This document shows positions 33,829 to 44,862 of a DNA stretch of 64,000 bases, in pieces (positions within the stretch are counted from its first letter, which is position 1; each line of letters begins with the position of its first letter). Where the stretch lies: NCBI GenBank assembly GCA_026984915.1, contig JALSRG010000056.1, positions 62,001-126,000 on the forward strand, read 5' to 3'. Source of the stretch: Marinosulfonomonas sp. GTDB taxonomy: Bacteria > Pseudomonadota > Alphaproteobacteria > Rhodobacterales > Rhodobacteraceae. The notes beneath the pieces were generated by a model that searched no databases, was not told where the DNA came from, and saw only the letters and a program-made list of their open reading frames with translations. A program made the translations under genes and the position numbers.

Positions 33829-34197
33829 CTACTTCTTTTTGCCGGCAATCGCGCGGGCCGGGCCCTTACGAGTACGTGCATTGGTGTGCGTGCGCTGGCC
33901 GCGCACAGGGAGGTTGCGACGATGGCGCAAACCGCGATAACAGCCCAGATCCATCAGGCGCTTGATGTTCATCTGGATTTCCCGGCGCAGATCGCCTTCG
34001 ACCATATAATTCGCGTCGATTTCTTCGCGGATCTTCAGAACCTCGGCATCGGTAAGTTCGTTTACCCGTTTAGCCGGATCAACGCCAACGGCTTCGCATA
34101 TTTTCTTGGCCGATGTCCGGCCAATTCCAGTGATGTAAGTAAGGGCGATCGAGACCGGTTTATGGGTCGGGATGTTTACGCCGGCGATACGTGCCAC
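33829..34197 (-). CDS. rpsM: Ribosomal protein uS13
   Basis: The 122-residue protein begins [22 protein letters not shown] and ends with a basic tail ([17 protein letters not shown]). It forms 30S head-50S bridges. It follows adk after a 166-base spacer that contains a weak GC hairpin but no clear terminator. Confidence 0.98.
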
Positions 34198-34363
34198 GTG
34201 TATTTTCCTTTCGTTGCGGTTCCGTAACCCCAGAACCTTTTTTCACAACGCAGGCCCGAAGGCATCTTACCCACGGGCCGGAGCTGAATTCGTCTGCATC
34301 TCACAAGTATGACAAGACCCTGTTCAAGTTGCCAAATGCGATTCTCTTACAAGAAAGGGTCAA

Positions 34364-37258: not shown

Positions 37259-37651
37259 TCAATCCAGCGTTTCAATCATCTTGGTCAAATGCGCGATACG
37301 CTCGGCGACCTCCGCGTTCAGCGCCGTCAATTCCTGCTGCAGGCTTTGTTTGGTGGCTGACGTCTGTTTATTGTCTGCCAGGATTGCATCCAGTTCGGAA
37401 ATGGCCCGCGCCAGAATCGGTGAAATCTCATAGCGGATGGCCTGCTCGCCGCGCAGTTCGGATCCCGGCATGGGTTTGCTAATGCGTTTGAACTCATAAC
37501 GCCGACGCTTGGGCAGAAAGGAATTTTTCGGGCGCCGGTAATTGATCTTCAGAACGTCCATATCTTCGGCCACATGCACGGTTACATAGCCGATGATCTG
37601 TTCTGGATTGAGTACGCCCATTTCAGTCAGGCTTGGTGTCTTCGTTTTCAT
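37259..37651 (-). CDS. DUF3461 family protein
   Basis: The 130-residue protein has the DUF3461 signature: SLTEMGVLNPEQIIGY near the start, DVLKINYRRPKNSFLPKRRRYEF in the middle and a C-terminal helical segment with ELDAILADNK and a coiled-coil-like LNAEVAERIAHL. No function is known for the family. It lies between rpmD and rplO after a terminator, so it is probably transcribed from its own promoter in 37652-37764. Confidence 0.85.
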   Translation of the reverse strand: MKTKTPSLTEMGVLNPEQIIGYVTVHVAEDMDVLKINYRRPKNSFLPKRRRYEFKRISKPMPGSELRGEQAIRYEISPILARAISELDAILADNKQTSATKQSLQQELTALNAEVAERIAHLTKMIETLD

Positions 37652-37764: not shown

Positions 37765-37791
37765 AAAAACGCCCCGGGTTTCCCCAGGGCG
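37765..37791 (-). terminator. Intrinsic terminator after rpmD
   Basis: On the minus strand, CGCCCTGGG and CCCGGGGCG (with one U-G pair) flank a GAAA loop and are followed by TTTTTGTTTC. This is a strong terminator within the ribosomal protein cluster. It would end the spc transcript after rpmD. Confidence 0.85.
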
Positions 37792-37822
37792 CTTGCAATT
37801 CTTGTATCAGGCAACGCGGTTA

Positions 37823-39530: not shown

Positions 39531-39923
39531 CTAATAAACCGTGCAGAGCACTTCGCCGCCAACATTGGCGCTGCGTGCTGCTGCATCCGACATGACACCT
39601 TTCGATGTCGAGACAATCGACACACCCAGGCCCTGACGGACCGAAGGGATGTCCTTGACGCCCATATAAACGCGGCGGCCAGGGGTCGAGACCCGGTGGA
39701 GTTCGCGGATGACAGGGGTGCCATCGAAATATTTCAGGCTGATTTCAATGGCAGGATGGCCATCTTTGCCCGTCGTTTTCTCATAGCCGCGGATATAGCC
39801 TTCGCTGGCCAGAACATCCAGAACCCAGGCGCGCAACTTGGACGCCGGAGTTTCTACCGTGGATTTGCCACGCATCTGGGCATTCCGGATACGGGTGAGC
39901 ATATCGCCGATAGGATCATTCAT
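39531..39923 (-). CDS. rpsH: Ribosomal protein uS8
   Basis: The 130-residue protein begins [16 protein letters not shown] and ends [23 protein letters not shown]8 represses the spc operon in E. coli; that control is not shown here. The ATG at 39923 is the conserved start rather than the longer frame to 39998. Confidence 0.98.
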
Positions 39924-39936
39924 ATCGTCTCTCCCT

Positions 39937-40242
39937 TTACCAACTGGACTTGACCAGGCCGGGGATCTTCCCGTCTGAACCAAGTTCCCGAAGTGCAATC
40001 CGCGAAATTTTCATTTTGCGATAATATGCATGCGGACGTCCCGTAAGCTGGCAACGGTTGTGCAGCCGGGTCGCCGAGGAATTGCGGGGCAGTTTCGCCA
40101 GTTTCAGATGCGCCTTGAAACGCTCTTCCATCGGGCGCGACTCATCGTTTGCGATTTCCTTCAAAGCGGCCCGCTTGGTTGCATATTTTGCAACCAGCGC
40201 CTGACGCTTCTTTTCGCGTTCGATCATTGCTTTTTTAGCCAT
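39937..40242 (-). CDS. rpsN: Ribosomal protein uS14 (zinc-independent form)
   Basis: The 101-residue protein has [28 protein letters not shown]. It lacks the paired CxxC motifs, so it is the long, zinc-free type. It lies 21 bases after rplE. Confidence 0.98.
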
Positions 40243-42026: not shown

Positions 42027-42102
42027 CGCCGTATCCTCTCATCAGAAGCCAGCGACAGAGCACAATGCACATAGCGCACGACCCGGCCACCACTTTTCCA
42101 AC

Positions 42103-42136
42103 AAAAAATGCGAACCCCCGCTAAACCGAGGGTTCG
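42103..42136 (-). terminator. Intrinsic terminator between rplP and rpmC
   Basis: On the minus strand, CGAACCCTCG and CGGGGGTTCG form a ten-base stem (one U-G pair) around GTTTAG, followed by CATTTTTTG. It starts eight bases after the rplP stop. A terminator here splits the S10 operon before rpmC. Confidence 0.82.
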
Positions 42137-44785: not shown

Positions 44786-44839
44786 GCTTTCTGTCTTCCG
44801 TTAGCTTTGACCCGTTACCGGGCCGGATTGAAATAGTCA

Positions 44840-44862
44840 CGGCCCCGCATACGCCGGGGCCG
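44840..44862 (-). promoter_or_regulatory. Hairpin between rplW and rplB
   Basis: CGGCCCCG and CGGGGCCG form an eight-base stem around a seven-base loop. The following TGACTATTTC is only weakly U-rich, so it is not a convincing terminator. It may be a processing or attenuation structure. Confidence 0.55.

Follow-up and report, generated by a model that had tools for sequence, protein, structure and literature searches.

In the window, by which we mean the whole 64-kb stretch of DNA that was analysed, the S10 part of the ribosomal-protein operons ends on the minus strand with rplP (L16, 42145-42558), placed by the list of open reading frames and with orthologues in 53 of the 61 genomes searched. 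After a gap of 118 nt it is followed by rpmC (L29, 41823-42026), the first gene of the spc-like operon of the family, likewise placed by the open reading frames and by orthologues; an earlier note on this DNA had named both genes correctly. The gap holds, on the same strand, a stem-loop starting 8 nt past the rplP stop (hairpin 1, 42111-42136), a U-tract of six T (42103-42108), and an RNA element, the rpmC leader (42034-42108), whose 5' end overlaps the U-tract. A Shine-Dalgarno-like AGAGGA (42034-42039), recognized in the sequence, stands directly past the leader.

Hairpin 1 and the border after rplP

Hairpin 1 resembles an intrinsic terminator. Its stem has 10 pairs, seven of them G-C and one G-U, enclosing a loop of 6 nt, and with just C-A between the stem and the U-tract, the T6 begins two nucleotides past the G+C-rich stem. 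The first 50 nt past the rplP stop have a folding energy of -17.8 kcal/mol (z of about -3.2), while at the 12 other internal stops tested in the S10/spc genes z lies between +1.0 and -1.9 in 11 cases and is -2.1 for rplX. A terminator rule demanding at least 10 pairs, 7 G-C, and T6 within 10 nt was applied to both strands of the 64-kb window, and hairpin 1 was the single match; when the whole window was dinucleotide-shuffled ten times, the counts were 0, 0, 0, 0, 0, 0, 1, 0, 0, and 0, i.e., one match in total. The strong terminator-like hairpin that had been noted past rplP, a 10-bp stem with T6, is therefore present as described and is the only one of its kind in the window. The possibility that it is a repeat was ruled out, as its stem pattern has no second occurrence in the genome.

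The hairpin recurs in the relatives that share the compact layout, where it lies 0-16 nt past the rplP stop, as compared to 19-93 nt in 52 other rows. Past rplP, 18 of the 21 compact rows have a perfect stem of 7 bp or more, the remaining three folding less regularly, and z is below -1 in 17 of the 21. A U-run close to the hairpin is mostly not kept, nor are the letters of the hairpin conserved between the compact relatives. Of the 14 A-form rows (see below), two gave no stem of 7 bp or more; of the other 12, four (the window, L209, L212, and L221) show a run of at least four U within 12 nt of the stem, while in the remaining rows this run is displaced or absent, so that stem and U-run are not kept together in relatives of the same architecture. 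As most A-form rows have no U-run close to the stem, hairpin 1 may have been kept for a function other than termination.

The positions of rplP and rpmC were surveyed in 61 genomes, of which 33 from the Rhodobacteraceae and 19 from other families of the class yielded both genes. In 31 of the 33 the junction is 88-224 nt wide, filled with genes, or broken: it measures 88-224 nt in 13 genomes and more than 1.6 kb in 14, the genes are on opposite strands in one and on different contigs in three (possibly an assembly effect), and only in two (G017 and G036) is it as short as 34-37 nt. All 19 genomes from outside the family have junctions of 17-69 nt. Of the 59 non-compact Rhodobacteraceae rows, a count that leaves aside rows L068, L073, L074, and L075 ("others f1"), 52 have a stem of 7 bp or more within 150 nt of the rplP stop, and these stems are mostly terminators of the A-rich/stem/T-rich type (e.g., L034, L035, and L060). 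In rows L077-L111, such a stem is found in three of 35, and one of these three (L092) is titled Rhodobacteraceae. As far as gene arrangement and predicted stems tell, rplP is the end of a transcription unit in the Rhodobacteraceae and the rplP/rpmC junction is an operon border. The premise of the earlier note, a terminator in the middle of one stoichiometric operon, fails because rplP closes the unit in the family; the widths of the junctions and the stems past rplP in the relatives rule it out.

It should be mentioned here that many roseobacters (e.g., L034, L035, and L060) carry more than 1 kb of other DNA, seemingly including unrelated genes, between rplP and rpmC. The ribosomal cluster of the genome studied is also interrupted a second time, at rpmD/rplO, where a DUF3461 gene (37259-37651, Pfam E 1.1e-14) is inserted between the two genes; a 12-bp terminator-like stem is located past rpmD (37767-37794, minus strand).

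The earlier note had offered a separate promoter for rpmC as one of two ways out, and this is borne out in most of the wide-junction relatives, but no such promoter was found in the 19 compact genomes, that of the window among them. Of the 54 wide-junction rows, 40 have a promoter of the form TTGCC-N17-TATACG upstream of rpmC that exceeds the 99% shuffle level; 27 of these rows served to train the matrix, and 13 of the 40 are outside the training set. The strict pattern TTGNC-N-N16-18-TATR occurs in 27 of 61 rows, a set that includes 7 compact ones, as compared to 1% of shuffled regions. The -10 hexamer TATACG has no T at position -7, in line with what a passage of PMC8407463 describes for alphaproteobacteria. 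None of the 21 compact rows, the window's included, reaches the 99% shuffle level with the same matrix; these rows represent 19 genomes, as L129/L216 and L135/L219 are identical loci. In the 380 nt upstream of rpmC in the window, no site scores higher than -1.1 (99% shuffle level, 12.3), and a sigma-70 scan of the window gave no minus-strand site near the junction.

Two forms of a probable RNA leader before rpmC

The RNA element of the window, which we call the A form, consists of UUGGAAAAG (42101-42093), a second hairpin (hairpin 2), and CUUCUGA (42048-42042), and the window and a minority of the relatives have the arrangement UUGGAAAAG - hairpin - CUUCUGAUGA in common. A model built from ten relatives with the window left out (R3) finds 42034-42108 on the minus strand with 43 bits (E 4.4e-11) as the sole significant match in the 64 kb, the next best having 9.3 bits. 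It also finds L218, L220, and L221, which were outside its training, while six compact loci of other kinds are not matched. The model that includes the window (R2) matches 14 of 248 Rhodobacteraceae genomes, and 13 of the 14 matches stand before rpmC. In hairpin 2 the sequence varies with the pairing kept, whereas the core letters are invariant. The A form has three doubly changed pairs, a number equaled in 115 of 500 shuffles, while its covariation score is reached in 0 of 500; as the core letters do not vary and the core pairs never change, covariation backs only hairpin 2. The A-form RNA is, judged from these comparisons, probably a ribosomal-protein leader. The control by a ribosomal protein that the earlier note had envisaged is plausible, but the conserved RNA at 42034-42108 is a separate element downstream of the terminator hairpin and not that hairpin itself.

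Most relatives have a different structure between the promoter and rpmC, the B form, which reads CACCGG - AAUC - AGGG - U GA - CCC ... GGG - G - CCCU - CCGGUG. In 34 rows, 96.6% of the cells of its 13 pairs are paired, and 9 pairs (36 cells) show double changes; on all five measures used, this covariation is reached in 0 of 500 shuffles. When the partner strand is slid by one to three columns, the pairing falls to 31-57%, and RNAalifold recovers the same fold unaided. For 28 of the 34 rows, the presence of the outer 6-bp stem had been a condition of selection, whereas that of the two inner helices had not; these helices, free of that selection, contain five doubly changed pairs. Alignment A1 excludes as non-leaders the loose-filter picks L001, L025, L082, L085, L089, L102, L105, L106, and L108, and six of its rows (L076, L114, L124, L128, L137, and L138) were placed by hand. 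The B-form model (R1) matches 194 of the 248 Rhodobacteraceae genomes, nearly always once each. Position was checked in two overlapping subsets of the 194: rpmC is immediately 3' of the B form in all of the 30 best loci, and the distance to rpmC is 9-22 nt in all of the 21 genomes whose coordinates were checked. In 289 genomes across the class, R1 gave four matches, three of them in Rhodobacteraceae and before rpmC and a weak one (G458) without rpmC. On these grounds, the B form too is probably a ribosomal-protein leader. A B-form leader in the window was considered as well and rejected, as the best R1 match there has 10 bits and lies elsewhere.

Some rows (L120, L126, L128, L130, L132, and L137-L139) have an extra hairpin-like stretch between the promoter and the B core, flanked by CATC... 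and GATTCG. At three further compact junctions with strong hairpins (G007, G011, and G020, i.e., L010, L014, and L024), neither R3 nor R1 gives a match; these are possibly further leader types.

The leader type differs even within one genus, since the three other genomes of the window's genus have the B form in the compact layout. In a tree of 80 rows, which is built on three short proteins, has many open forks, and skips L214 and L062 for missing genes, the A-form rows appear at several places and require four changes, at least three of them forced by starred branches. With this scatter, the change between A and B may have gone in either direction. In 41 genomes of the family sample, no A or B leader was counted.

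Neither the leader of the window nor the loci of nine relatives gave a match at gathering score to any family of Rfam 15. Elsewhere in the window, the family of the alpha operon ribosome binding site gives a weak match (34165-34242, minus strand, 23.8 bits vs a gathering score of 38, E 0.07).

S8 as a candidate ligand

The first suspect as ligand of the leaders is S8, a lead suggested by a likeness that was seen by eye and after the fact. The sixth gene past rpmC, in the open reading frame at 39531-39998 on the minus strand, is rpsH, which encodes S8 (Pfam Ribosomal_S8, E 1.4e-47, with matches to S8 structures in the PDB); the S8 domain starts at about residue 26 of this frame. S8 is named as the known repressor of the spc operon of E. 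coli in a passage of PMC10931766. Its binding core, as given in part of PMC4176348, is composed of G597-C643 with nucleotide 641, the invariant A642, and A595-(A596-U644).

The strand order of the E. coli S8 operator is 5' GAAACU ... AAGUC 3', and the B form reads 5' GURACC ... GGGC 3', with counterparts of G639-C599, A642, and C643-G597 found by eye in 31 of the 34 rows. In the A form, the order is that of 16S rRNA, AAG ... ACU, and nucleotide 641 is absent. Most A-form leaders have a bulged A at the position of A642, whereas the window has a G there, which weakens the S8 reading for this genome.

Neither R1 nor R2 gave a significant match in 16S and 23S rRNA (L200, L201, L204, and L205), and mimicry of rRNA at the level of the models was rejected on this basis. 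A descriptor of the A core finds the S8 site in helix 21 once in each of two 16S sequences and nothing in four 23S sequences; it was written after both sites had been seen, and its hits were not counted. A descriptor in operator order (D2) matched only 10 of the 34 B leaders and did not recover the E. coli operator that served as its positive control; it does not count as evidence. D2 likewise found nothing near rplE in the window, but it is not a valid test. An S8 operator would be located at the rplE start, while the present RNA stands before rpmC.

We regard it as a tentative idea, with the chances clearly against it, that the two forms are alternative S8 operators, the A form in the strand order of helix 21 of 16S rRNA and the B form in that of the E. 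coli spc operator, where the strands are swapped. Within the family, the two would have replaced each other several times, even within the window's genus, with the gene order kept and the border promoter gained or lost.

Reading of the junction and known systems

We find it somewhat more probable than its negation that hairpin 1 is a leaky terminator, close to the terminating ribosome, at the S10/spc border, followed by the leader of the rpmC operon, which would be under the control of a ribosomal protein, with S8 suspected. According to this proposal, the S10 operon has its 3' border at hairpin 1, and a second operon of ribosomal-protein genes, equipped with a structured leader of its own, starts with rpmC. 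A ribosome at a stop codon overlaps the base of a hairpin 8 nt away, owing to its size. In the compact layout, the ribosome finishing rplP would thus cover the base of hairpin 1 and hinder its folding, such that transcription would read through into the rpmC operon when rplP is translated and would be cut when it is not. Further downstream, the 3' strand of the leader lies directly before the Shine-Dalgarno sequence of rpmC, and a ribosomal protein encoded in the operon, S8 being the first suspect, would by binding it lower the translation of rpmC and of the genes coupled to it. The terms leaky and ribosome-gated are inferred from two observations, namely that no promoter was found in the compact genomes, where complete termination would shut off genes that are essential, and the spacing between hairpin and stop.

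The main rival to a leaky or ribosome-gated terminator is a guard of the mRNA end. An RNase would cut in the U-rich stretch, hairpin 1 would protect the rplP side, and the leader side would become separate. The U/A-rich stretch between hairpin 1 and the leader would suit such a cut, and the compact relatives do keep the hairpin and mostly not the close U-run; however, the window's stem with T6 fits a terminator rule for which about 0.1 matches are expected by chance, and terminator-like stems occupy the border in the wide-junction relatives. We consider this rival unlikely. Just as improbable, in our estimate, is a full terminator combined with an unseen rpmC promoter inside rplP or at the junction, unlike the promoter of the relatives. 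Exactly such a pair of terminator and promoter exists in the wide-junction relatives, but the promoter score in the window (-1.1 vs 12.3), the failure of all 21 compact rows to reach the shuffle level, and the sigma-70 scan speak against it.

It is much less likely still that hairpin 1 is itself a regulated attenuator to which a ribosomal protein binds to set the read-through. The precedent is E. coli, in which L4 acts on the S10 leader by attenuation. Part of PMC2704228 names L4 binding before the S10 gene. At the present junction, however, the hairpin letters are not conserved between the compact relatives, and the conserved element is the next one. Finally, a chance hairpin without function would be in line with the one match that the ten shuffled windows gave in total, but the position of hairpin 1, the family-wide border, and the recurrence of a hairpin equally far from the stop make this explanation hardly credible.

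With regard to known systems, hairpin 1 shares with intrinsic terminators the stable G+C-rich stem followed by T6. It differs in lying only 8 nt from the stop, and the leader follows directly with no recognized promoter between. The L2-Alphaproteobacteria leader (RF03142) belongs to the same gene cluster, and a match below threshold stands before rplB in the window (44788-44862, minus strand, 33.1 bits vs a gathering score of 37.8), which is another place and another RNA. In the spc operon of E. coli, as in the present proposal, the repressor S8 is encoded in the same gene block, and the B form shares the strand order of the operator given in part of PMC4176348, a match drawn by eye after both had been seen. 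The E. coli operator overlaps the rplE start, whereas the leader stands before rpmC, and the other core letters differ.

In the literature searched, which placed most subscription journals and supplements outside its scope, we found no leader before rpmC in Rhodobacteraceae. The A- and B-form rpmC leaders are thus unlisted and a more interesting object than hairpin 1: they match no Rfam family, most of the genera sampled in a large, well-studied family have such an RNA ahead of an essential operon, and the changes of terminator, promoter, and leader at a fixed gene border show the evolutionary splitting of a ribosomal operon. The closest comparison is with the 20 r-leaders of Eckert and Weinberg 2020 (PMC7247131). 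Among the 20 entries in Table 1 of that paper, there is none for the regulation of rpmC/L29 or this operon, rpmC and L29 do not occur in its main text, and its alphaproteobacterial r-leader is the L2 leader before rplB. In common with those r-leaders, the present ones are conserved, lineage-limited RNAs located directly before a ribosomal-protein gene, with covariation in the B form.
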